Both the position numbers and the translations under genes were made by a program. Below the pieces are notes generated by a model. It was not told the DNA's origin. It made no database searches and saw only the letters and a program-made list of their open reading frames with translations. This document shows positions 6,062 through 50,034 of a stretch of DNA of 64,000 nucleotides, one piece after another. This DNA comes from an uncultured Aquimarina sp. (GTDB taxonomy: Bacteria; Bacteroidota; Bacteroidia; Flavobacteriales; Flavobacteriaceae). Location of the stretch: positions 124,001 through 188,000 of the forward strand of contig NZ_CANLMP010000004.1 of NCBI RefSeq assembly GCF_947492405.1. The letters run 5' to 3'. Each line of letters begins with the position of its first letter. The stretch's first letter is position 1.

Positions 6062-6094
6062 TTTGGAACTTTATACTTAATAATCCCATATTTG
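6062..6094 (+). promoter_or_regulatory. Promoter of leader unit A
   Basis: TTTG at 6062-6065, a 21-base spacer and CATATTTG at 6087-6094 match the Bacteroidetes primary sigma consensus (TTTG, 17-23 bases, TAnnTTTG) at all but one base. The short ORF at 6134 begins about 35 bases after the expected transcription start. Confidence 0.65.
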
Positions 6095-6133: not shown

Positions 6134-6196
6134 ATGAATCTATTTTGTACACATAAAAAAGGACGCTATAAAGCTATTTTCGAATCGAAAGCATAG
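6134..6196 (+). CDS. Leader ORF A, 20 codons, upstream of rtcB
   Basis: ATG 6134 to TAG 6194-6196 encodes a 20-residue peptide (MNLFCTHKKGRYKAIFESKA) with 15 different amino acids. It has its own promoter upstream and an intrinsic terminator 30 bases downstream. Codons 10-12 contain GGACGCT (6161-6167), identical to the 3' arm of that terminator. The same heptamer sits in leader ORF C near 31.86 kb but in a different reading frame, so the nucleotides rather than the residues are conserved. I infer a ribosome-read attenuator leader; no homologous protein is recognised. Confidence 0.6.
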   Translation: MNLFCTHKKGRYKAIFESKA

Positions 6197-6226
6197 ATAA
6201 AAACTAGAAAAAGATATATTCTAAAG

Positions 6227-6255
6227 AGCGTCCAAAAAAATTGGACGCTTTTTTT
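6227..6255 (+). terminator. Intrinsic terminator of leader unit A
   Basis: AGCGTCC (6227-6233), a 9-base loop and GGACGCT (6243-6249) form a perfect 7-bp stem followed by a run of T. The 5' arm can pair instead with GGACGCT at 6161-6167 inside leader ORF A, which would be an antiterminator. Confidence 0.8.
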
Positions 6256-6429
6256 ATGGAATTATTTTCAGAAACTATGAACACCAAATACAATGTTGTT
6301 TGAGCGATACTCATAAGAGCTACAGTTAGTTACCCAATTGGTCAATATCCGTTCATAAACGGACAGGGCTTTTTTTGCCTAAAAACAAACTCAACTAATT
6401 GATAATCAATTAAATAAATTGAAAAATAA

Positions 6430-6461
6430 TTTGCATACTTAAAAAATAGATTTCATATTTG
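6430..6461 (+). promoter_or_regulatory. Promoter of leader unit B with conserved AT-rich upstream element
   Basis: TTTG 6430-6433, 20 bases, CATATTTG 6454-6461, then CACCGCAAT. The 50 bases upstream (about 6382-6430) are nearly identical to those before leader D at 32.09-32.14 kb, so the two promoters are duplicates. Between the terminator of unit A and this promoter lie a small hairpin, CCGTT/AACGG near 6350, and the shared string AACGGACAGGG. Confidence 0.65.
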
Positions 6462-6477
6462 CACCGCAATACAGCAA

Positions 6478-6567: not shown

Positions 6568-6651
6568 ATGACCTTTACAGACATATACACAGATACATCA
6601 AGAGAACGAGGTTCTTTTATGTATATGCTTCGAGACTTCTATAACTCATAA
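6568..6651 (+). CDS. Leader ORF B, 27 codons, upstream of rtcB
   Basis: ATG 6568 to TAA 6649-6651 encodes a 27-residue peptide beginning MTFTDIYTDTSRERGS, rich in Thr, Tyr, Phe, Arg and Asp. It follows promoter B and precedes a terminator by 22 bases. Codons 21-24 contain TTCGAGACTT (6629-6638), which matches the terminator 3' arm TTCGGACTT apart from one extra A, so it can pair with the 5' arm AAGTCCGAA. This is the same logic as leaders A, C and D although the terminator sequence is different. I infer an attenuator leader peptide. Confidence 0.6.
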   Translation: MTFTDIYTDTSRERGSFMYMLRDFYNS

Positions 6652-6673: not shown

Positions 6674-6709
6674 AAAGTCCGAAGCCAGAATAAAGTTTCG
6701 GACTTTTTA
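6674..6709 (+). terminator. Intrinsic terminator of leader unit B
   Basis: AAAGTCCGAA (6674-6683) pairs perfectly with TTCGGACTTT (6697-6706), followed by T residues. It lies between leader ORF B and rtcB, so transcription from promoters A and B must read through it to reach the repair operon. Confidence 0.8.
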
Positions 6710-6953: not shown

Positions 6954-8345
6954 ATGGGAAAGAAATTAAGCGGAAAAGACTTAATCAAATTAGGCTTTCC
7001 AAAAAACAATAGTATTAATGTGACATTAGGTCAGATTAATCGATATCAAAAAAGAGTAAAAAAAGAACAAATATTAATAGAAGCAAAAAAGGTATTATTA
7101 AATCCCGAAGCTTATCAAGGTGATGGCATATGGGGTAAGATTGCTGAAAGTTTACTAAAGCCAGTGGAAATAAAAAAACATGCTTTAAAAACTACTAGGT
7201 CATCATTTCAGATCTATGGCGAAAATGAAATCGATGACCAGGCAAAATATCAATTGTATGATGCACTTAAATTACCGGTAGCAGTTGCTGGAGCTTTAAT
7301 GCCCGATGCACATAGTGGATATGGTTTGCCTATTGGCGGTGTATTAGCTACCAAAAATGCAGTGATTCCTTATGGAGTTGGAGTAGATATCGGATGTAGA
7401 ATGTGTTTAACGATTTATCCAATTGCTATCTCTTATTTAAAAGGAAAAAAACATCAATTGGAAAATATATTGTCTGAGCACACCAAATTCGGTATGTATG
7501 AAACCCATAAAATAAAGCATGATCACGAGATCTTTGAAAGAGAAGAATTTAAGAACATTCCTCTAGTAAAGAGATTAAAAGACAAAGCTTATAAACAATT
7601 GGGAACCTCTGGTGGAGGAAATCATTTTGTAGAATTTGGAACTGTAGCTATTACAGATACAGCAAATGAATGGGGACTGGATGTAGGTACTTATATAGGT
7701 GTATTATCACATAGTGGATCTCGAGGATTGGGAGCCAATATTGCAAAACACTATACCTATTTAGCAACCAAACAATGTCCATTACCAAAGCATGTGCAGC
7801 AATTAGCTTGGTTAGATCTTAGTACGCACGATGGTCAGGAATACTGGTTGGCAATGAATCTTGCCGGAGATTATGCACAAGCATGTCACGATAATATTCA
7901 CGCTAGAATTGGAAAATTATTAGGATCAAGACCAGTTGCCAAAATTGAAAACCATCACAATTTTGCCTGGAAACAGGAAGTAAACGGCGAGGAGTGTATC
8001 GTGCATAGAAAAGGAACAACTCCTGCTGCTAAAGGTGAGTTAGGAATTATTCCGGGATCTATGACAGCTCCAGGATTTATAGTGAGAGGATTAGGAAACC
8101 CAGAAAGTTTGCAATCTGCATCCCACGGAGCAGGAAGATTACATTCCAGAAGAAAGTGTAAAGAGAAATTTACTAAGAGTGATATCAAAAAACAATTAAA
8201 AGCAAATGATGTTACCTTAATTGGAGGAGGAATTGATGAAGCACCTATGGCGTACAAAGATATTACTAAAGTCATGGCAAATCAGAAAGAACTCGTAGAA
8301 GTAGTAGGAACATTTACACCAAAAATTGTACGAATGGATAAGTAA
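6954..8345 (+). CDS. rtcB: RtcB-type RNA ligase
   Basis: 463 residues. RtcB joins RNA 2',3'-cyclic phosphate or 3'-phosphate ends to 5'-OH ends using GTP and manganese. The family motifs are all present: DAHSGYGLPIGG near residue 118, GVDIGCRMC near 143, GTSGGGNHFVE near 218, SHSGSRGLG near 254, NHHNFAW near 330, and SASHGAGR near 390 whose His is the guanylylated residue in the family. ATG 6954 fits the family N-terminus only loosely; the first 90 residues are the divergent region seen in PrfH-linked RtcB2 proteins. It is followed by prfH and a TPR gene. Two leader-ORF/terminator units upstream suggest control by attenuation. Confidence 0.95.
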   Translation: MGKKLSGKDLIKLGFPKNNSINVTLGQINRYQKRVKKEQILIEAKKVLLNPEAYQGDGIWGKIAESLLKPVEIKKHALKTTRSSFQIYGENEIDDQAKYQLYDALKLPVAVAGALMPDAHSGYGLPIGGVLATKNAVIPYGVGVDIGCRMCLTIYPIAISYLKGKKHQLENILSEHTKFGMYETHKIKHDHEIFEREEFKNIPLVKRLKDKAYKQLGTSGGGNHFVEFGTVAITDTANEWGLDVGTYIGVLSHSGSRGLGANIAKHYTYLATKQCPLPKHVQQLAWLDLSTHDGQEYWLAMNLAGDYAQACHDNIHARIGKLLGSRPVAKIENHHNFAWKQEVNGEECIVHRKGTTPAAKGELGIIPGSMTAPGFIVRGLGNPESLQSASHGAGRLHSRRKCKEKFTKSDIKKQLKANDVTLIGGGIDEAPMAYKDITKVMANQKELVEVVGTFTPKIVRMDK

Positions 8346-8695
8346 TACAATTTGGGCGTTTCCCGCCGCGGCGGGTCGGGCTTTCGGCTATATCTTTTCT
8401 GTCATACTTCTCGACTCCGCTCGAAGTGACAGAAAAGGATGCCGCCTCAATCCCTAACGTGAAAAGGAAAAAATGAAATCTAAAAATTAAAAAATAGTGA
8501 ATGATGGCCTATCGAAAGTTTAACGTAAAATTTGAAGTGAAAATACCGTGAAATTTTAGACTGTTTGAGCGTAGCGAGTTTCTAAAATTTAGGTGTTGAA
8601 CAATAAATTTATTCAAACCTTCGTAAGCCTAGATTTTTTTGGTTCGTTTTTTCATCGATGGAAAAAATGAACAGAAACTGATAAGAATATTCAAA
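8346..8695 (+). other. rtcB-prfH spacer with two palindromic repeats
   Basis: This 350-base gap holds a GC palindrome near 8363, a repeat with CTTCTCGACTCCGCTCGAAG (8408-8427) that recurs at 49.97 kb and inside a coding gene at 58.88 kb, and a long hairpin whose arms AAATTTTAGA (8551-8560) and TCTAAAATTT (8581-8590) match perfectly. No gene is seen. The upstream extension of the prfH frame to a GTG or TTG at 8639 is not credible. Confidence 0.6.
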
Positions 8696-9391
8696 ATGAA
8701 AACTAAAATAATTCAAATAACCGCTGGACGAGGACCTGCAGAATGTTGCTGGGTTGTTGCGCAAGTACTGAAACTATTTCTAGAAGAAATTAAAAATAGT
8801 GGATTTACATATAGCATCCTGCAGAGAGACAAAGGTTCCGAAAATGGAACCGTACAATCCGCAACCATACAACTAAAAGGAAAAGAAGTAGACACCTTTT
8901 TAGCATTGTGGCTAGGAACCATTCAATGGATTGGAACGTCTAAATATAGAAAACACCATAAAAGAAAAAACTGGTTTATCGGAATGTATGAAATCAAACA
9001 GACTGAACTGATTACTCTAAATGAAAAAGACATTTCTTTTCAGGCAATGCGCAGTTCTGGTCCTGGCGGTCAAAACGTAAACAAAGTAAATTCTGCCGTT
9101 CGTGCTACCTATCATCCTACAGGAGACCAGGTAGTGGTTATGGACAGTAGATCACAACATCAAAATAAAAAAATCGCAATAGAACGATTAAAAGAAAAAG
9201 TATATCAAAGTCAACTTACCAAACTACAAAAATCACTAGATGACCAATGGGAAAATCATCTAAGCGTAGAACGAGGTAATCCCATTAAAGTATTTAAGGG
9301 AACTGACTTTAAAAAAAACTATAAAAAACAATCGTATGCGTCGGATCGTCAACAATTAAAAAAAGATTTACGCAACGAATTAAAAAACTAG
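8696..9391 (+). CDS. prfH: Peptide chain release factor homologue PrfH (RF-H)
   Basis: 231 residues from ATG 8696, where MKTKIIQITAGRGPAECCWV matches the family start; the open frame extends 19 codons upstream without support. It carries the catalytic GGQ motif (SGPGGQNVNKV, near residues 118-128) that hydrolyses peptidyl-tRNA, but no codon-recognition domain of RF1/RF2. Published work on PrfH and its partner RtcB2 shows that PrfH releases ribosomes whose 16S rRNA decoding centre has been cut so RtcB can reseal it. The basic C-terminus (KNYKKQSYASDRQQLKKDLR) fits binding in the mRNA channel. It lies 4 bases before the TPR gene, in one operon. Confidence 0.93.
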   Translation: MKTKIIQITAGRGPAECCWVVAQVLKLFLEEIKNSGFTYSILQRDKGSENGTVQSATIQLKGKEVDTFLALWLGTIQWIGTSKYRKHHKRKNWFIGMYEIKQTELITLNEKDISFQAMRSSGPGGQNVNKVNSAVRATYHPTGDQVVVMDSRSQHQNKKIAIERLKEKVYQSQLTKLQKSLDDQWENHLSVERGNPIKVFKGTDFKKNYKKQSYASDRQQLKKDLRNELKN

Positions 9392-11037: not shown

Positions 11038-11583
11038 ATGAGTACAAATACAATTATAATTATAGACCTGGAGGCTACTTGCTGGAATGGTCCTGTACCA
11101 CAAGGACAAATAAATGAAATCATAGAAATAGGTATCTGTTTATTAAATACAGAAACTGGAGAAATTTCTGAAAACCAAGGGATTTTGATCAAACCAGAAC
11201 GCTCAGAAGTAAGTCCTTTTTGTACAGAATTGACGACAATAACTCAAGATTTATTAAATCAAGAAGGAATATCATTTATTGAAGCCTGTGAAATTATAAG
11301 AACTAAATATCAAGGACACCAACATACATGGGCAAGTTATGGCCTATACGATCTAAATATGATGAAAAAACAATGTAGTTTTAGAGAAATAGAATACCCG
11401 TTATCACAAAATCATATTAATGTAAAAGAACTTTTTACTAAGGTAAAAGGATTACAAAAAAAAGTTGGAATGAAAGGAGCTTTAGGGATTTTAAATATTC
11501 CTTTAGAAGGAACACATCATAGAGGTGTTGATGATGCTAAAAACATTGCCAAAATTTTAAATTGGTCATTACTCCAAAAGTAG
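11038..11583 (+). CDS. DEDDh 3'-5' exonuclease, ERI-1/KapD-like
   Basis: 181 residues. The acidic residues of the DEDDh exonuclease fold are visible: IIDLEATCW (residues 8-16), NEIIEIGI (near 27), YGLYDLNMM (near 105) and the final HHRGVDDAKNIA (near 160). This branch resembles ERI-1/KapD enzymes that trim RNA 3' ends in eukaryotes; bacterial substrates are not settled. It follows the Ntn-hydrolase gene by 13 bases and the RtcB/PrfH cassette by 1.1 kb, so a role in processing RNA ends is plausible but unproven. Confidence 0.85.
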   Translation: MSTNTIIIIDLEATCWNGPVPQGQINEIIEIGICLLNTETGEISENQGILIKPERSEVSPFCTELTTITQDLLNQEGISFIEACEIIRTKYQGHQHTWASYGLYDLNMMKKQCSFREIEYPLSQNHINVKELFTKVKGLQKKVGMKGALGILNIPLEGTHHRGVDDAKNIAKILNWSLLQK

Positions 11584-31730: not shown

Positions 31731-31763
31731 TTTGGATTATACCATCAGATTATCCAATATTTG
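31731..31763 (+). promoter_or_regulatory. Promoter of leader unit C
   Basis: TTTG 31731-31734, 21 bases, AATATTTG 31756-31763, the same geometry as promoter A (TTTG, 21 bases, CATATTTG). Transcription would begin near 31770, just upstream of the possible first ATG at 31772. Confidence 0.65.
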
Positions 31764-31771
31764 TATTAGAA

Positions 31772-31882
31772 ATGACAAAAAATAGATTACATATTATGCC
31801 GAAACCACTGTTTAGTCAGTGTGATTACCGATGGATAGAAGTATCTAATGCCGGTAAAAGGACGCTTTGTAACTATTTTTGA
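31772..31882 (+). CDS. Leader ORF C, 36 (or 28) codons, upstream of the tRNA array
   Basis: In frame from ATG 31772 (or ATG 31796) to TGA 31880-31882. Read from 31772 the 36 codons use all 20 amino acids, including single or double copies of Trp, Cys, His and Met; from 31796 only His is missing. Almost no codon is repeated and many are rare in this AT-rich genome (CCG, CTG, CGA, AGG, ACG, GCC, ATA). GGACGCTTT (31860-31868) near the ORF end equals the 3' arm of the following terminator. It looks like a general tRNA sensor peptide for attenuation. Start choice unresolved because the 5' leader is very short for 31772. Confidence 0.6.
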   Translation: MTKNRLHIMPKPLFSQCDYRWIEVSNAGKRTLCNYF

Positions 31883-31927
31883 CTATTATTTTGATATGAT
31901 TTAAAGATAAAAAAACAGATATAGTAC

Positions 31928-31957
31928 AAGCGTTCAAGAAATTGGACGCTTTTTTTA
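31928..31957 (+). terminator. Intrinsic terminator of leader unit C
   Basis: AAGCGTTC (31928-31935) pairs with GGACGCTT (31944-31951) through one G-U pair, followed by seven T. The same stem sequence is used by terminator A. GGACGCTT inside leader ORF C offers an alternative partner for the 5' arm. Confidence 0.78.
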
Positions 31958-32141
31958 TTAATTTTTTTTGAAAAAATGTTTAAAAGTTAATTAGTACATA
32001 AAAAGTAGTTTTTGGAAAGTAAGCATCAGGGAGACAGACGATTGCAAAAAAATCCAATATTCGTTGAAAAACGGACAGGGATTCCTATATCAAAAAAACA
32101 AACATAACTAATTGATTATCAATAAAATAAATTGAAAAAAA

Positions 32142-32172
32142 TTTGGAGATTAAAAAAATGTTTTGATCTTTG
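32142..32172 (+). promoter_or_regulatory. Promoter of leader unit D
   Basis: TTTG 32142-32145, 19 bases, GATCTTTG 32165-32172, then CATCGCAAT. The AT-rich sequence just upstream is nearly identical to that before promoter B. The frame that opens with a TTG at 32170 lies within the promoter itself and is not the start. Confidence 0.65.
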
Positions 32173-32238
32173 CATCGCAATCACAACGAAACAAAAATAA
32201 ATAGTGATTACGTTATTTACAACAATAAAAAATTAAGA

Positions 32239-32358
32239 ATGATACCGAATAGTTTACAACATAGTTTAACCCGCCTCTTTAGCAAACAAGGAGAATATTG
32301 TTCCGATTGGAATATACATGGTGTCTATTATATAGAAAGGAAACGTATGCGATTATAA
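32239..32358 (+). CDS. Leader ORF D, 39 codons, immediately upstream of the tRNA array
   Basis: ATG 32239 to TAA 32356-32358. The 39-residue peptide starts MIPNSLQHSLTRLFSKQGEY and uses 19 of 20 amino acids (no Ala), with Trp and Cys present and the rare codons CGC, CTC, CGA, AGG and CGT. Within codons 12-15, CGCCTCTTT (32272-32280) can pair with the terminator 5' arm AAAGGCG with a single bulged base. A terminator follows 25 bases after the stop, and the first tRNA of the array begins 170 bases further on. Same architecture as leader B. Confidence 0.6.
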   Translation: MIPNSLQHSLTRLFSKQGEYCSDWNIHGVYYIERKRMRL

Positions 32359-32383
32359 ACCGACATACAACCACAAGATATAT

Positions 32384-32412
32384 AAAGGCGCCCGAATAAG
32401 GCGCCTTTTTTT
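32384..32412 (+). terminator. Intrinsic terminator of leader unit D
   Basis: AAAGGCGCC (32384-32392) and GGCGCCTTT (32400-32408) form a 9-bp stem around CGAATAA with a T-run. It is the last barrier before the tRNA array. Confidence 0.85.
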
Positions 32413-32584: not shown

Positions 32585-32657
32585 TGACACGTAGCTTAAC
32601 TGGAAAAGCACTCGACTTTTAATCGAGATGATGTGGGTTCAAATCCCTCTGTGTCAA
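32585..32657 (+). tRNA. tRNA-Lys (TTT)
   Basis: Full cloverleaf: acceptor TGACACG/TGTGTCA, D-stem GCTT/AAGC, anticodon arm CTCGA-CTTTTAA-TCGAG giving anticodon TTT, T-arm GTGGG-TTCAAAT-CCCTC with one mismatch, discriminator A, no encoded CCA. First gene of the array and of normal form. Confidence 0.85.
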
Positions 32658-32663
32658 CTTTAA

Positions 32664-32750
32664 GGAAGAGCAAGCCAATTGGCGGTGGCCGCAGTCTTGA
32701 AAACTGTTAGGAGCTAATGACTCGTGTGGGTTCGACTCCCACTTCTTCCG
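32664..32750 (+). tRNA. tRNA-Ser (TGA)
   Basis: Acceptor GGAAGAG/TTCTTCC, anticodon arm GCAGT-CTTGAAA-ACTGT (TGA), long variable arm GGAG/CTC, T-arm GTGGG-TTCGACT-CCCAC, discriminator G as usual for serine. Normal class II tRNA. Confidence 0.88.
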
Positions 32751-32754
32751 CTTC

Positions 32755-32882
32755 GGAGGATAGGCAAATATTGGTTTGTTGCGCTTGTCTGCTAAACAGG
32801 TCTGCATAACAGCAGTGAAGGTTCCCTGCCCGACACAGTTTTTAGAAAATAGGTTGGCAGGCGGGAAGTCCTTTGTCCTCCG
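32755..32882 (+). tRNA. tRNA-Ser (GCT) with a 41-base insertion in the T-loop
   Basis: Acceptor GGAGGAT/GTCCTCC, discriminator G, anticodon arm CTTGT-CTGCTAA-ACAGG (GCT) and a variable stem CTGC/GCAG identify tRNA-Ser. The T-stem 5' strand GAAGG (32817-32821) and 3' strand CCTTT (32870-32874) are separated by TTC, 41 extra bases (32825-32865) and AAGT. Removing the 41 bases restores the canonical 7-base T-loop TTCAAGT. The insertion has complementary ends (CCTGCC and GGCAGG), so it forms a hairpin; it also resembles a genomic palindromic repeat. Without removal the tRNA should be inactive. Confidence 0.7.
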
Positions 32883-32926
32883 CTTTCCAATTCAGAATTA
32901 TGAATTCATAATTCTGAATTAATAAA

Positions 32927-32999
32927 GACAAGATGGCTGAATGGCAAAGGCAACGGAATGCAAATCCGTCTTTTATGAGTTCGAATCTCATTCTTGTCT
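32927..32999 (+). tRNA. tRNA-Cys (GCA)
   Basis: Acceptor GACAAGA/TCTTGTC, anticodon arm ACGGA-ATGCAAA-TCCGT, T-arm ATGAG-TTCGAAT-CTCAT, discriminator T. The spacer before it carries the palindrome TTCAGAATTATGAATTC...AATTCTGAA. Confidence 0.85.
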
Positions 33000-33012
33000 C
33001 AATCCCGAAAAA

Positions 33013-33094
33013 GGGAATTCGTTGGAGTTGGAGAGCCAGGGCAGTCTGTAAAACTGTTGCGAAAGCTGAATAGGTTCGAATCCTATAATTCCCA
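33013..33094 (+). tRNA. tRNA-Tyr (GTA)
   Basis: Acceptor GGGAATT/AATTCCC, D-stem TTGG/CCAG, anticodon arm GCAGT-CTGTAAA-ACTGT (GTA), class II variable arm, T-arm ATAGG-TTCGAAT-CCTAT, discriminator A. Normal form. Confidence 0.88.
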
Positions 33095-33107
33095 CTAAAA
33101 TTATAAA

Positions 33108-33178
33108 GCGTTTGTAGTGTAAAGGTAGCACGCAGGTCTCCAAAACCTTTAGTCTGGGTTCAAATCCTGGTAAACGCG
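33108..33178 (+). tRNA. tRNA-Trp (CCA)
   Basis: Acceptor GCGTTTG/TAAACGC, D-stem GTGT/GCAC, anticodon loop CTCCAAA (CCA), T-arm CTGGG-TTCAAAT-CCTGG with two wobble pairs, discriminator G. The anticodon stem has one terminal mismatch. Confidence 0.82.
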
Positions 33179-33230
33179 CAAAATTAAATACTGATTATGT
33201 ATTAAAAGATTCCCGTCTTCACGGGAATAT

Positions 33231-33303
33231 AGTATCGTAGCACAGTGGCTAGTGCACCCGACTGTCTCTCGGAAGGTCGCGGGTTCGAATCCCGTCGGTA
33301 CTG
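33231..33303 (+). tRNA. tRNA-Asp (GTC)-like
   Basis: Acceptor AGTATCG/CGGTACT, D-arm GCAC/GTGC, anticodon arm CCCGA-CTGTCTC-TCGGA (GTC), T-arm GCGGG-TTCGAAT-CCCGT, discriminator G. The A1-T72 pair is unusual for tRNA-Asp, position 37 is T instead of a purine, and the outer anticodon-stem pair is mismatched, so it is divergent. A palindromic repeat (TTCCCGTCTTCACGGGAA) lies just upstream. Confidence 0.72.
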
Positions 33304-33368
33304 CAAAGCAGGACTCGGGATGAGAAGTTTATCCTGAGCTAGGTCGAAGGGAATCCCGTCGGTACTGC
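33287..33368 (+). repeat. 18-base direct repeat flanking a 46-base insert after tRNA-Asp
   Basis: GAATCCCGTCGGTACTGC occurs at 33287-33304 (the 3' end of tRNA-Asp) and again at 33351-33368. Between them lie 46 bases with the interspersed repeat core TATCCTGAGCTAGGTCGAAG. This looks like a repeat insertion accompanied by duplication of the tRNA end. Confidence 0.65.
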
Positions 33369-33373
33369 TATAT

Positions 33374-33448
33374 CTGAGAAGATAACGGTGGTTTTGTTTA
33401 CTCGCCTTGGACGCGAGAGGTCGTCCCGCCATAGCGGGACTTCTCAGA
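33374..33448 (+). tRNA. tRNA-Pro (TGG)-like with replaced T-arm
   Basis: Acceptor CTGAGAA/TTCTCAG (7 perfect pairs), anticodon arm CTCGC-CTTGGAC-GCGAG (TGG) and discriminator A support a proline tRNA. In the T-arm position stands GTCCCGCCATAGCGGGAC, a palindrome of the genome's interspersed repeat type with no TTC loop, and the D-stem is only AAC/GTT. Such a molecule may not fold or be charged normally. Confidence 0.6.
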
Positions 33449-33454
33449 CAAATT

Positions 33455-33526
33455 GCTCTATTAGCATAGTGGTTAGTGCTCCCGGCTTTCTACCGGAAGA
33501 CAAGGGTTCGATTCCCTTATAGAGTA
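33455..33526 (+). tRNA. tRNA-Glu (TTC)
   Basis: Acceptor GCTCTAT/ATAGAGT with a G-T first pair, D-arm GCAT/GTGC, anticodon arm CCCGG-CTTTCTA-CCGGA (TTC) with a mismatched outer pair, T-arm AAGGG-TTCGATT-CCCTT, discriminator A. Confidence 0.78.
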
Positions 33527-33536
33527 CAATTTTAAT

Positions 33537-33609
33537 GCAGGAATGGCGGAACGGCATACGCGCTTGACTTAGAATCAAGATCTTGAGAGTTCGAATCTCT
33601 CTTCCTGTA
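33537..33609 (+). tRNA. tRNA with Leu anticodon TAG and short variable loop
   Basis: Acceptor GCAGGAA/TTCCTGT, anticodon arm CTTGA-CTTAGAA-TCAAG (TAG), T-arm GAGAG-TTCGAAT-CTCTC, discriminator A. The variable region is only ATCTT. Bacterial tRNA-Leu is class II with a long variable arm, so this gene is atypical and may not be charged with leucine by the host enzyme. Confidence 0.72.
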
Positions 33610-33698
33610 CTAATACCATTTACATTTTGAATTTACCGCAATAAAATACTCTTTTTTGCCAATGCTTTAGAATAAATTCAAAGTGCAAAAGGTATAAT

Positions 33699-33772
33699 GC
33701 TCCGCTAGCCCAAATGGCAGAGGCATCCGGTTTAAGCCCGGTTCAGTCTAAGTTCGAATCTTAGGTGGAGTA
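33699..33772 (+). tRNA. tRNA with Leu anticodon TAA and short variable loop
   Basis: Acceptor GCTCCGC/GTGGAGT, D-arm GCCC/GGC, anticodon arm TCCGG-TTTAAGC-CCGGT (TAA), variable TCAGT, T-arm CTAAG-TTCGAAT-CTTAG, discriminator A. As with the TAG gene 90 bases upstream, the long variable arm of tRNA-Leu is missing. Confidence 0.75.
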
Positions 33773-33778
33773 CAAAAC

Positions 33779-33850
33779 AAGCTCATGGTGTAAATGGAAG
33801 CACCCAAGGTTACGACCCTTGAAGTATAGGTTCAAATCCTATTGAGTTTA
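33779..33850 (+). tRNA. tRNA-Arg (ACG)
   Basis: Acceptor AAGCTCA/TGAGTTT with one G-T pair, D-arm GTGT/GCAC, anticodon arm CAAGG-TTACGAC-CCTTG (ACG, needing A-to-I editing to read CGN), T-arm ATAGG-TTCAAAT-CCTAT, discriminator A, four-base variable loop. Confidence 0.75.
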
Positions 33851-33860
33851 CAAACTGATC

Positions 33861-33929
33861 TGTGATGTAACGGCAGCATCCAAGACTTTGACTCTTGGTG
33901 CAAAGGTTCGAAATGCTGTGCATTCACAA
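33861..33929 (+). tRNA. Degenerate tRNA-Gln (TTG)-like gene
   Basis: The anticodon arm CAAGA-CTTTGAC-TCTTG (TTG) is intact and is followed by GCAAAGGTTCGAAA as in glutamine tRNAs, but the T-stem 3' strand expected as CCTTT is replaced by TGCTG. TGTGATG can pair with CATTCACA only with a bulge, and the D-arm is shortened. Discriminator unclear. Probably a decayed or non-standard tRNA. Confidence 0.5.
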
Positions 33930-33982
33930 ATACAAAATTATCAAATATTGACCTAATGAGTAATCCTTTCGGGTCATCAAAC

Positions 33983-34054
33983 TAAGGTATAACTCAGTGG
34001 AAGAGTGCCGTGGTTATATCGCGGAAGTCTTGGGTTCGATTCCCAATGCCTTAG
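33983..34054 (+). tRNA. tRNA-Ile (TAT)
   Basis: Acceptor TAAGGTA/TGCCTTA, D-stem ACTC/GAGT, anticodon arm CCGTG-GTTATAT-CGCGG giving anticodon TAT, T-arm TTGGG-TTCGATT-CCCAA. Most bacteria read ATA codons with a lysidine-modified CAT anticodon, so a TAT gene is unusual. ATA codons occur in leader ORFs B, C and D. Confidence 0.72.
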
Positions 34055-34096
34055 CTATTATCTATTCACAAAAAAATAAGGTCAATATATAGTATT

Positions 34097-34954
34097 TTAT
34101 TTTTTACTGTTTCGAATACTCAAAAATATTGCGATCCCTCCTGTAAAAAACATTAATAAACTATATACAGCGGGAGCAATTGCAAAAGAAGTATTATGAA
34201 GTATCGCGATAGCAACGGTTATAGCTAAAGTACCATTTTGAATACCGGATTCTATTCCAATAGATATGGCGCCTTTTTGATGAACACGAAATAGTTTTGC
34301 AGAATAATAACCGATAGCCATTGTCAAAACATTCAATAATAAAGCAACAAGACCAGCTTCTTTAAAATAAAAAATGAAGTTGTCTTTTTCTTTAATTAGA
34401 ATACCTACAATAACTAAAGCAAGTACTAACGCTGAAGCTATTTTTACCGGTTTAGCCATCTTTAATGCAAAAGACTCATTATACTTTCTTATTATCATAC
34501 CAATAGCAACAGGTATAATAATTATAACTAAGATCTGAATGATAGTTTCAATTACATTTAATTGAATAGTTTGATCTTCGGATAAAAAGTAAAGTAACGA
34601 AAAATTAACTATGAACGGTATGGTGATTATAGTTATCAAACTACTAAAAGCTGTAAGTGTTACAGATAATGCAATATCTCCCTTAGCTAAATGAGAAATC
34701 AAATTAGAAGTCGCTCCACCTGGACAGGCTGCTAATATCATAATTCCAATAGCTATTTCCGGTTTTAGCGACAGCGCAGAAGCTAACAGAAAACCTACAA
34801 GTGGTAAGATTATAAGTTGATTCACTAAACCAACCAAAATTGCTTTAGGATAAATAAGTATTCTCTTAAAATCAGCCACTACGAGGGACAACCCCATCCC
34901 TAACATGATAATGAATAAGGATGCGGCTAAAATAATCGTCGAAATATTATCCAT
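34097..34954 (-). CDS. Bile acid:sodium symporter (BASS/SBF) family transporter
   Basis: 285 residues with about nine membrane segments. LAACPGGATSNLISHLAKGDIALSV (quoted here only in part: CPGGATSN near residue 81) is the hallmark of the SBF family, and GIESGIQNGTLAITVA near residue 235 is the second crossover-helix motif. Such proteins import organic anions with sodium. It lies inside the tRNA array, on the opposite strand, between tRNA-Ile and tRNA-His, so array transcription would run antisense to it. Substrate unknown. Confidence 0.82.
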   Translation of the reverse strand: MDNISTIILAASLFIIMLGMGLSLVVADFKRILIYPKAILVGLVNQLIILPLVGFLLASALSLKPEIAIGIMILAACPGGATSNLISHLAKGDIALSVTLTAFSSLITIITIPFIVNFSLLYFLSEDQTIQLNVIETIIQILVIIIIPVAIGMIIRKYNESFALKMAKPVKIASALVLALVIVGILIKEKDNFIFYFKEAGLVALLLNVLTMAIGYYSAKLFRVHQKGAISIGIESGIQNGTLAITVAIAILHNTSFAIAPAVYSLLMFFTGGIAIFLSIRNSKK

Positions 34955-35037
34955 AAACTTTGTTTTCTAATATATGGACTAATATAAAGATTTATTTATC
35001 AAAACTCTGAAAATCAAAACCTACAAAACCATAAAAT

Positions 35038-35110
35038 GGTGTCTCTAGCTTATCTGGTAAAGCATCTCACTGTGAATGAGAAGAACAGGGTTCAAGTCCC
35101 GGAGTACACC
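35038..35110 (+). tRNA. tRNA-His (GTG)
   Basis: G-1 at 35038 faces C73, the identity pair of tRNA-His; D-arm GCTT/AAGC; anticodon arm TCTCA-CTGTGAA-TGAGA (GTG); T-arm CAGGG-TTCAAGT-CCCGG with one mismatch. The inner half of the acceptor stem (GTGTCTC with AGTACAC) has two mismatches, so the gene is somewhat decayed. Confidence 0.7.
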
Positions 35111-35117
35111 CAAAAAA

Positions 35118-35190
35118 GGAATAGTAGCAAAGTTGGTCAATGCGTTGGATTGAAGATCCGAAGATATAGGTTCAAATCCTATCTGTTCCA
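35118..35190 (+). tRNA. tRNA-Phe (GAA)
   Basis: Acceptor GGAATAG/CTGTTCC, anticodon arm TTGGA-TTGAAGA-TCCGA (GAA), T-arm ATAGG-TTCAAAT-CCTAT, discriminator A. Normal form. Confidence 0.85.
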
Positions 35191-35212
35191 CTAACAATTA
35201 AAATTTAAAACT

Positions 35213-35533
35213 ATGAGAAACAATTTACTACAAAGGTTTTTATGTAAAACTGAAGACACAGGAAGGTTCATAGTTCAATCCAAAATTACTGGTATTACCT
35301 ATTTCGTAGAACCAATCGATAATGGCAAACCAGATAAGCTTTGGGGTGATCTAGATCCTGCTACTAAAAAGCTTACTGGTGATTACGGAAATTCTAGAAG
35401 AGGAGCTGTTAAAAAAGAAGATTCATTAATTCTGAAAGAAAATGGTTTTAAGAACATCTCCATTTTTAAAGGAAGTCCACTAGGAGAAATCGACAGACGC
35501 GATCACGAATATGAGCTATTAAATAATCCATAA
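35213..35533 (+). CDS. Small protein encoded inside the tRNA array, 106 residues
   Basis: Not recognised. ATG 35213 lies 22 bases after tRNA-Phe, and codon use looks like that of normal genes. The sequence is soluble and charged with strand-like segments (GRFIVQSKITGITYFVEPID) and a Gly/Arg-rich middle (GDYGNSRRGAVKKED), no membrane helix, no cysteine pair beyond one N-terminal Cys. Its location between tRNA genes suggests a tRNA- or array-linked role. A small RNA-binding or modification-related protein is possible but unproven. Confidence 0.6.
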   Translation: MRNNLLQRFLCKTEDTGRFIVQSKITGITYFVEPIDNGKPDKLWGDLDPATKKLTGDYGNSRRGAVKKEDSLILKENGFKNISIFKGSPLGEIDRRDHEYELLNNP

Positions 35534-35560: not shown

Positions 35561-35725
35561 ATGAAAACACAACCAACAATTACAAAGCAAAAAACAAAAA
35601 ATGGTTTACAACATTTACTTTTAAAATGGGCTACTATCTATATCAATAGTATGACCAAAGCTCTGTATCCTGATACAGATACTCCCAATAGTAAAAATGA
35701 TCAAAATCGCATTTTTTACAAATAA
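35561..35725 (+). CDS. Small basic ORF inside the tRNA array, 54 codons
   Basis: ATG 35561 to TAA 35723-35725, beginning MKTQPTITKQKTKNGLQHLL, 27 bases after the 106-residue gene. It is basic and may form an amphipathic helix in the middle. No family recognised. Short length leaves coding status uncertain, although the spacing and start codon context favour co-translation with the previous gene. Confidence 0.4.
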   Translation: MKTQPTITKQKTKNGLQHLLLKWATIYINSMTKALYPDTDTPNSKNDQNRIFYK

Positions 35726-36880: not shown

Positions 36881-37981
36881 ATGAAAAGAGTAAGAATCAA
36901 TGCTGGCAAAGTAGGCTTGGTTTTCAGAAAAGGAGATTACAATCGTGTTATAACACAAGGAACCCATTGGTTAGGATTTAATGAGCGTGTTATTCAGTAT
37001 GATTTATCTAAACCCTTTGCAGCTCCAATAGCACTGGAACTCTTACTAAAAGATACAGTGTTGGAAGATATGTTACACCTAATTGAGGTAAAGGATAATG
37101 AAATTGTATTGGTCTATGAGAATGGTAACTTTAAAAGTGTATTTTCTGCAGGAAGATACACACTTTGGAAAGGATTGTACGAATATGAATTTACAACAGT
37201 AGATCTTAGTAAAATCTATATTACAGAGAAAATTGATAAATCTTTATTCAGCAATCATGCACTCAATAAATATATCCGAGTTTTTGAAGTTGCTGCATAT
37301 GAAAAAGCTGTACTTATTGTAGATGATGTATATGCTAAAACTTTGGGTAGTGGTACATATCGTTTCTGGAGAAATGACACAACTATCAAAATTGCTAAAG
37401 CAGATTTACGTCAACTACAGCTTGAAATTTCAGGTCAAGAATTATTGACAAAGGATAAAGCTGCTATTCGTATCAATTTCTACATACAATATAAAGTAGT
37501 AGATATCGAAAAAGCTTTACTTGAAAATAAAGAATATGAAAAACAATTATACATCGCGATGCAATTAGCTCTTAGAGCTTTCGTAGGAAATTACACCTTA
37601 GATGAACTTTTAGAGCGTAAAGAAGATATGGCAAATGCTATTCTGGACGCTACTAAAAGTCAGACAATCAAGTTAGGTGCGAAAGTATTGAATTGTGGTA
37701 TCAGGGATATTATCCTTACCGGTGAAATGAAAGAAATCATGAACCAGGTGTTGGTAGCACAAAAGAGAGCTCAAGCTAATATCATTACCAGGCGTGAGGA
37801 AACTGCATCTACCAGAAGTTTGCTAAATACAGCTAAACTGATGGAAGATAATGAAATGCTCTACAAATTGAAAGAAATGGAATATGTAGAGAAAATTGCC
37901 GATAAAATCGGCGAGATTACGGTTTCTGGAAATGGTGGGATGGTAAAACAACTGAAGGACATATTCTCTGTGAATAGGTAA
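36881..37981 (+). CDS. Slipin / SPFH (Band-7) domain protein
   Basis: 366 residues. ATG 36881 is chosen over an out-of-frame ATG ten bases upstream. Two N-terminal repeats of a small beta module (VRINAGKVGLVFRKGDYNRV and later NEIVLVYENGNFKSVFSAG) precede the SPFH core (about 125-300; FEVAAYEKAVLIVDD, KDKAAIRINFYIQYKVVD, GAKVLNCGIRDIILTGEMKEIM) and a helical tail with AQKRAQANIITRREETASTR. It lacks the membrane hairpin of classical slipins, so it may form a soluble ring. Slipins of this kind recur in predicted RNA repair loci; here it closes the tRNA array. Confidence 0.88.
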   Translation: MKRVRINAGKVGLVFRKGDYNRVITQGTHWLGFNERVIQYDLSKPFAAPIALELLLKDTVLEDMLHLIEVKDNEIVLVYENGNFKSVFSAGRYTLWKGLYEYEFTTVDLSKIYITEKIDKSLFSNHALNKYIRVFEVAAYEKAVLIVDDVYAKTLGSGTYRFWRNDTTIKIAKADLRQLQLEISGQELLTKDKAAIRINFYIQYKVVDIEKALLENKEYEKQLYIAMQLALRAFVGNYTLDELLERKEDMANAILDATKSQTIKLGAKVLNCGIRDIILTGEMKEIMNQVLVAQKRAQANIITRREETASTRSLLNTAKLMEDNEMLYKLKEMEYVEKIADKIGEITVSGNGGMVKQLKDIFSVNR

Positions 37982-49894: not shown

Positions 49895-50034
49895 TCCGAT
49901 TTTATTTTGGGCGCATCCCGAATCGTACCTCTCGGAATCGGGCTATTCGCTATATCTTTTCTGTCTTACTTCTCGACTCCGCTCGAAGTGACAGAAAAGG
50001 ATGTCGCTGCTATCCCTTGCGCATTTATTATTAT

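Follow-up and report, generated by a model that had tools for sequence, protein, structure and literature searches.

An uncultured Aquimarina genome carries, within one 64,000-nucleotide stretch of contig NZ_CANLMP010000004.1 (hereafter the window), an RNA-repair gene set and an accessory tRNA array, each preceded by two short leader units, which raises the question of what these leaders sense and whether they place both sets under one control. We consider it probable that the four units (A and B before rtcB–prfH, C and D before 13 tRNA genes and a slipin gene) are paired ribosome-mediated attenuators arranged in series with promoters of their own, in which the loss of almost any charged tRNA would act through C and D, and slow or damaged ribosomes through A and B.

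The first island (6.9–11.6 kb, Pfam assignments) comprises an rtcB RNA ligase gene (6954–8345, forward strand; RtcB, 5e-83), a gene for a prfH-like release factor (8639–9391 as listed, forward; RF-1, 4.1e-25), a TPR gene, an acyltransferase-like gene and an RNase T-like 3′–5′ exonuclease gene (11038–11583, forward; RNase_T, 2e-15). Here rtcB is followed by prfH on a common strand, the arrangement of an RtcB–PrfH operon, and the true prfH start is likely the ATG at 8696, judging from the alignments of most homologues, which begin at about residues 11–22. Two matches to the Flavo-1 RNA (Rfam RF01705) lie on the reverse strand at 8370–8473, directly downstream of rtcB, and at 49932–50030. The second island holds the accessory array (32585–35191, forward; ARAGORN, Rfam and Pfam), with 13 tRNAs in the order Lys, Ser, Cys, Tyr, Trp, Asp, Glu, Leu, Leu, Arg, Ile, His and Phe and, within it, an SBF transporter gene on the opposite strand (34097–34954; Pfam). 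Two partial tRNA matches follow the 13 genes, and then the slipin (SPFH/Band 7) gene (36881–37981, forward; Band_7, 1e-29). This locus also contains small ORFs at 35213–35533 (106 amino acids) and 35561–35725 (54 amino acids) that found no Pfam match above the cut-off and that have relatives, identified by eye, at loci L273 and L225.

Every unit follows one plan, a promoter leading to a short open reading frame (ORF) and then an intrinsic terminator, all on the forward strand. Unit A opens with a promoter that we take to be of the Bacteroidota type, TTTG-21-CATATTTG (6062–6094; TTTG at 6062–6065, 21 nt, CATATTTG at 6087–6094), and continues with a 20-codon ORF (MNLFCTHKKGRYKAIFESKA; 6134–6196) bearing the antiterminator GGACGCT at 6161–6167 and with terminator A (6224–6252). 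Unit B begins with a block that we call P2 and promoter B (6303–6470), including an inverted repeat with the palindrome AATTGATAATCAATT (6397–6411), followed by a 27-codon ORF with the C-terminus ..LRDFYNS (6568–6651; antiterminator GCTTCGAGACTT at 6627–6638) and terminator B (6674–6706). The counterpart of A before the array, unit C, has promoter TTTG-21-AATATTTG (31731–31763; TTTG at 31731–31734, 21 nt, AATATTTG at 31756–31763), which ends 8 nt before the ATG and leaves a very short 5′ untranslated region or none, then a 36-codon ORF (31772–31882; antiterminator GGACGCTTT at 31860–31868) and terminator C (31928–31951). Unit D again starts with a P2 block and promoter (32014–32181; near-palindrome at 32110–32124) and proceeds to a 39-codon ORF (32239–32358; antiterminator GGTGTCT at 32320–32326) and terminator D (32384–32408). 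An ORF predicted to be translated thus precedes an intrinsic terminator in all four units, the layout of an attenuator. Scanned on both strands, the window has 19 terminator-like sites, of which four, namely A, B, C and D, come with a short ORF and an antiterminator scoring 15 or more; the scan was designed with the units already known, and D scores exactly 15.0.

Much of this anatomy had been claimed from the letters alone, and the common GGACGCT stem of terminators A and C, the TTTG-21-n spacing of promoters A and C and the presence of GGACGCTTT in leader C are all borne out by the sequence. The antiterminator originally assigned to D, CGCCTCTTT (32272–32280), fared otherwise: the sequence is present, pairs with terminator D only across a bulge and is ruled out in this role, relatives keeping GGTGTCT with AGGCGCC or AGACGCC. 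A separate hairpin lies inside ORF D (32275–32293, forward), in which CTCTTT of CGCCTCTTT pairs with AAGGAG (32288–32293).

Pairing between leader and terminator 5′ arm is retained across relatives: it is kept in 140/147 cells (95%) for A, 127/132 (96%) for B, 108/120 (90%) for C and 96/105 (91%) for D, as compared with 17–54% of cells after a slide of 1–3 columns. Unit A displays double changes (GGACGCT/AGCGTCC, GAGCGCT/AGCGCTC and GGATGCT/AGCATCC), and when its own leader/arm pairs were set against swapped pairs the observed score was reached in just 18 of 5,000 shuffles. The same test was weak for C (174/5,000) and uninformative for B (5,000/5,000) and D (2,544/5,000), the sequences of which vary too little. 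Together with the nascent folding described below, the kept pairing and the double changes point to antiterminators that would be mutually exclusive with the terminators. From the end of the antiterminator to the stop codon, A and D span about 26–31 nt in most sequences, which puts the antiterminator outside a terminating ribosome and counts against attenuation by this route.

Other genera and families share the leader design. B-type units, with an antiterminator containing CTTCG and an arm containing CGAAG, stand before rtcB–prfH in other families of the order. In Gaetbulibacter, Hanstruepera, Winogradskyella and others they also precede tRNA arrays, as the second unit following a C-type leader, so that a single unit type guards both gene sets. 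At the distant slipin loci L185–L188, where no tRNAs were detected, a short leader ORF is followed by a terminator with a TCCCGG 5′ arm.

We postulate that the leader ORF is translated by a ribosome trailing RNA polymerase, that complete translation would sequester the antiterminator near the ORF end and allow the terminator to fold, and that a stall upstream would leave the antiterminator free to grab the terminator 5′ arm, so that transcription goes on. Folding predictions agree with this scheme to different degrees. In window units B and C, a ribosome midway through the sensing stretch is predicted to favour the antiterminator, and one at the stop codon the terminator. If the ribosome is absent, the terminator is favoured in all four window units, which counts against the scheme. 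A and D are predicted to adopt the terminator at equilibrium in all states tried, although in their nascent RNA, lacking the 3′ arm, pairing with the antiterminator is complete. Across loci, a stall led to predicted capture of the nascent 5′ arm in 71/71 B units (shuffled leaders, 83/355) and 25/27 A units (23/135) and, before arrays, in 59/65 first-place (71/195), 38/41 second-place (32/123) and 22/22 B-type units (22/66). Release of the 5′ arm with the ribosome at the stop codon was predicted in 50/71 B, 3/27 A, 10/65 first-place, 5/41 second-place and 17/22 B-type units, and clean equilibrium switching with the full terminator in 18/71, 0/27, 5/65, 0/41 and 3/22, respectively. An equilibrium switch in all units is not supported: full-length RNA prefers the terminator in most, so kinetic control would be needed. 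B may come close to a textbook attenuator in its behaviour, and the remaining types would require kinetic competition during transcription. We note that the folded units were preselected for antiterminator scores of 13 or more, which in part predetermines how they compare with shuffled leaders, and that units fitting fixed text patterns of coding-gene tails were removed from the A and B folding sets; the more independent supports are the kept pairing, pN/pS, the P2 profile, the terminator scan and a diversity test over 101 leaders.

The original prediction held that RNA rather than peptide is conserved. The codon frame of the shared heptamer does differ between A and C, and it varies even within the A orthologues, and pN/pS is 2.3 in D codons 27–29 (the antiterminator), in keeping with that view; the peptide cores speak against it, with pN/pS of 0.23 in C codons 12–22 and 0.33 in D codons 12–24. 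Selection therefore appears, from these sequence comparisons, to act on codon content in the first stretches of C and D and on RNA in the antiterminator codons of D and in B codons 13–19, where pN/pS reaches 8.3. (These counts left out L081 and L100 from C and D, L095 additionally from D, and 14 of 21 A and 5 of 22 B sequences.)

The content of the C and D peptides was overlooked in that prediction, and their near-complete amino-acid set is likely the sensor itself. The 36 residues of peptide C include every one of the 20 amino acids, and the 39 of peptide D include 19 (no Ala); leaders at the same place in other genera encode very unlike peptides of similar breadth (L178, 42 residues, all 20). 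Relative to composition-matched random codons, 101 distinct array leaders had a mean z of +1.62, with 94 above the null mean; all 20 amino acids occur in 17 of them and 19 in another 33 (together 50/101), and 16 or fewer in 11, among them L081, L100, L222 and L232. The median P over the 101 is 0.071, single leaders often being non-significant. When leaders were grouped into 16 clusters by single linkage at 50% identity (at 35% all form one cluster and the test is impossible), codons upstream of the antiterminator gave a mean z of +1.12 (13/16 positive, p 0.0038), although the 16 clusters may be distant homologues of each other; a slight excess was also seen in codons after the antiterminator (+0.33, p 0.034), and none in the other two frames of the same bases (−0.15 and −0.37, p 0.6 and 0.13).

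This set, like a census of 60 distinct arrays with at least five tRNAs described below, admits gaps of up to 4,000 bases between last tRNA and slipin gene, and it excludes 7 units (coding-gene tails, over-long or shorter than 30 amino acids) and the 26 of 126 loci without a detected tRNA. A limit of 1,700 bases, which underlies the pN/pS counts, the B-type units described before arrays with their diversity score, and the A and B folding sets, retains 60 distinct leaders, loses arrays including L088–L092, L178, L179 and L182, and yields a z of +1.45 (p 0.00013, greedy clusters), the signal being weaker in the 101-leader set. No significant correlation was found between the amino acids enriched in leaders and the tRNAs that the arrays contain (rho 0.36, p 0.12; smaller set, rho 0.25, p 0.30). 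An earlier proteome null for diversity, computed on a loose set that included coding-gene tails and non-leaders, was superseded by the composition-matched nulls, and the Cys/His enrichment that it gave is equally expected from AT-rich random ORFs.

These results bear most directly on whether the units are generic translation-speed attenuators that any slow-down, such as that caused by antibiotics, would open, with diversity incidental as proposed for the toiL upstream ORF (uORF). The RNA design is alike throughout and the 17 B-type leaders before arrays have little special diversity (mean z +0.57), as that reading expects, and toiL is reported to respond to at least five antibiotic classes (PMC12121999). 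For C and D, however, the diversity is confined to the coding frame, being highest before the antiterminator, and the cores are under peptide-level constraint, which leaves this explanation unlikely, if still one to reckon with. Under our preferred reading of paired attenuators in series, the codons ahead of the antiterminator in C and D call for nearly every amino acid, and loss of almost any charged tRNA, for example to an anticodon nuclease, would open the accessory array, and generally slow or damaged ribosomes would open rtcB–prfH through A and B. Its fuller form, in which the peptides have been selected for all amino acids as a universal tRNA-damage sensor and any lost tRNA would call up both diverged spare tRNAs and RtcB–PrfH, seems to us evenly poised between right and wrong.

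The promoter blocks of B and D supply a second candidate layer of control. The likeness between these promoters had been described as a 50-base block, and it is real and longer: P2 spans about 170 bp (6303–6470 versus 32014–32181; 124/168 bases identical) and is alignable across the Aquimarina loci examined, the alignment of relatives leaving out L080, L083, L085, L086 and L100. Its 32-base core occurs twice in the 6,365,901-base genome, before B and before D (up to 3 mismatches). A profile built from 30 of 32 P2 stretches, including the window's own two copies, likewise has two strong matches in this genome (E 1.2e-34 and 3.8e-32; next 1.4e-4). Across 12 Aquimarina genomes, strong matches number two in seven, one in one, three in three and four in one. 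All five extra copies, from other Aquimarina, have a C-like leader in front. Four of them (L274–L277) precede genes for a 78–79-amino-acid protein, a protein of about 650 amino acids and a response-regulator-like protein (Pfam E 0.14 only), possibly a third member of the regulon; the single 78–79-amino-acid protein tested had no Pfam match. The fifth (L273) is followed by a D-like unit, and the 8 kb of this locus gave no tRNA. The weak matches inspected (E 2e-6 to 2e-3; L278–L284) all precede one identical, unrelated gene.

Such a block invites the view that a DNA-binding regulator acting at P2, comparable to TrcR at the Anabaena trn array, governs both sets and that the leaders are minor. The palindrome, an inverted repeat that covaries among relatives, the predominance of two strong copies per genome and the reported TrcR precedent (PMC10272220) are consistent with a P2 regulator. 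Against it, A and C lie upstream of P2 with their own promoters and the leader design reaches other genera and families, so we judge this account improbable. An exact palindrome as conserved operator is ruled out, exact copies occurring, among the loci scanned, only in the window, L089, L094 and L095; the conserved element is the wider block. In the attenuator model, P2 would instead be a second control common to both sets.

The B leaders carry terminal short basic motifs (..RLRG.., ..LRDF..), and RLR is a macrolide arrest motif, so these leaders might be drug-sensing arrest peptides that stall with macrolide-like drugs. RLR is found in many B leaders of family f5, but other B leaders are without it and the conserved LR codons fall on the antiterminator (CTTCG with CGAAG), which makes drug-sensing arrest quite improbable, somewhat more so than a P2 regulator. 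That the ORFs are functional small proteins and the terminators ordinary upstream ends, as the conserved peptide cores might suggest, is barely credible given the conserved pairing and position of the antiterminator and peptides that are very unlike between genera under a constant design.

Position and sequence support the original proposal that the RNA-repair and tRNA sets form one regulon, of which the two-unit design and the two-copy P2 block are the first signs. Of 80 named loci found with a slipin profile, some of them short contigs, 28 have prfH and 23 have rtcB within about 10 kb, always on the strand of slipin, and in 6 a relative of the exonuclease of the rtcB set lies close to slipin. 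The survey of relatives retained the best 80 of 508 confirmed ones. Across a sample of 296 genomes of the order, PrfH was found in 21 of 34 with slipin versus 41 of 262 without (Fisher p 3e-8, with chosen cut-offs and uncorrected for kinship). We infer that the units, and with them the two gene sets, would be induced together.

The array itself looks like a spare set. From the stretches fetched we read 34 distinct housekeeping tRNAs, which include a same-anticodon counterpart for 12 of the 13 array tRNAs; none was found among them for Ile(tat). Scored as matches minus gap penalties, array tRNAs reach only 0.44–0.69 per base against these counterparts (Phe, 0.82), close to the 0.50 averaged by housekeeping tRNAs of different amino acids. 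This is a divergent second tRNA set beside a housekeeping set, as in stress arrays of the Anabaena trn type. Among the 60 distinct arrays, Ala was never found, and few contain Thr (3), Gly (5), Met (7), Val (8) or Ile (11), as against 51 each for Asp and Leu, in a census made with ARAGORN alone, which misses degenerate genes. Bacterial tRNA-Leu usually has a long variable arm, for which the 74–75 nt of the two array tRNA-Leu genes (33537–33610 and 33699–33773) are too short, and these tRNAs may be charged or used unusually. Compared by eye (32585–34055), position 37 differs between array and housekeeping tRNAs for Asp, Glu, both Leu and Arg; this position of the anticodon loop matters for modification and for anticodon nucleases.

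Attenuators of the trp, his and ilv type combine a short leader ORF, an intrinsic terminator and a competing antiterminator, and to our knowledge attenuators sense one or a few amino acids. Units A–D have all three parts but differ in carrying no run of a single codon: the leaders are diverse rather than repetitive and contain nearly all amino acids, each once or a few times. They also differ in standing two in series and in controlling spare tRNAs and RNA repair instead of amino-acid synthesis. A T-box was likewise sought, and Rfam returned no match at the gathering threshold within the window. Colicin E3 cleaves the ribosomal decoding centre. An RtcB2–PrfH operon, with rtcB adjoining prfH as here, is reported to protect E. 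coli against this colicin (PMC9223846); the main text of that report contains neither 'attenuat*' nor 'leader', whereas the present operon appears leader-controlled and tied to a tRNA array. The rtcBA operon is another RNA-repair ligase operon, reported to be induced by damaged tRNA through the protein activator RtcR (PMC7790460), where we predict ribosome stalling in a leader ORF.

By analogy, the closest precedents would be the Anabaena trn array for gene content and the toiL uORF for sensing logic. The former is reported to unite an accessory tRNA array and rtcB under one control and to be induced by translation stress, and a slipin gene is tabulated there with the other affected genes; in that system control is by the protein repressor TrcR, here by predicted cis-acting leader attenuators and a promoter block (PMC10272220). 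In the latter, of E. coli topAI–yjhQ, one uORF likewise responds to many translation stresses through ribosome position, reportedly by way of translation repression and Rho, as opposed to intrinsic terminators, antiterminators and content-diverse peptides (PMC12121999). Signs of leader-peptide attenuation at amino-acid operons are described for Flavobacterium psychrophilum (PMC9723704). Titles and abstract openings, a scope mostly outside subscription journals, yielded no all-codon leader and no attenuator of rtcB or tRNA arrays. New here are cis-acting paired attenuators with leader peptides that span nearly all amino acids.

If this reading is true, a leader containing all amino acids would be a general detector of attack on tRNA, wired to the fitting remedy of replacement tRNAs and RNA-repair enzymes. 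It would also explain the off state of spare tRNA arrays and RtcB–PrfH in flavobacteria, and could make anticodon-nuclease toxins and phage defences easy to read out across a large group of marine bacteria.
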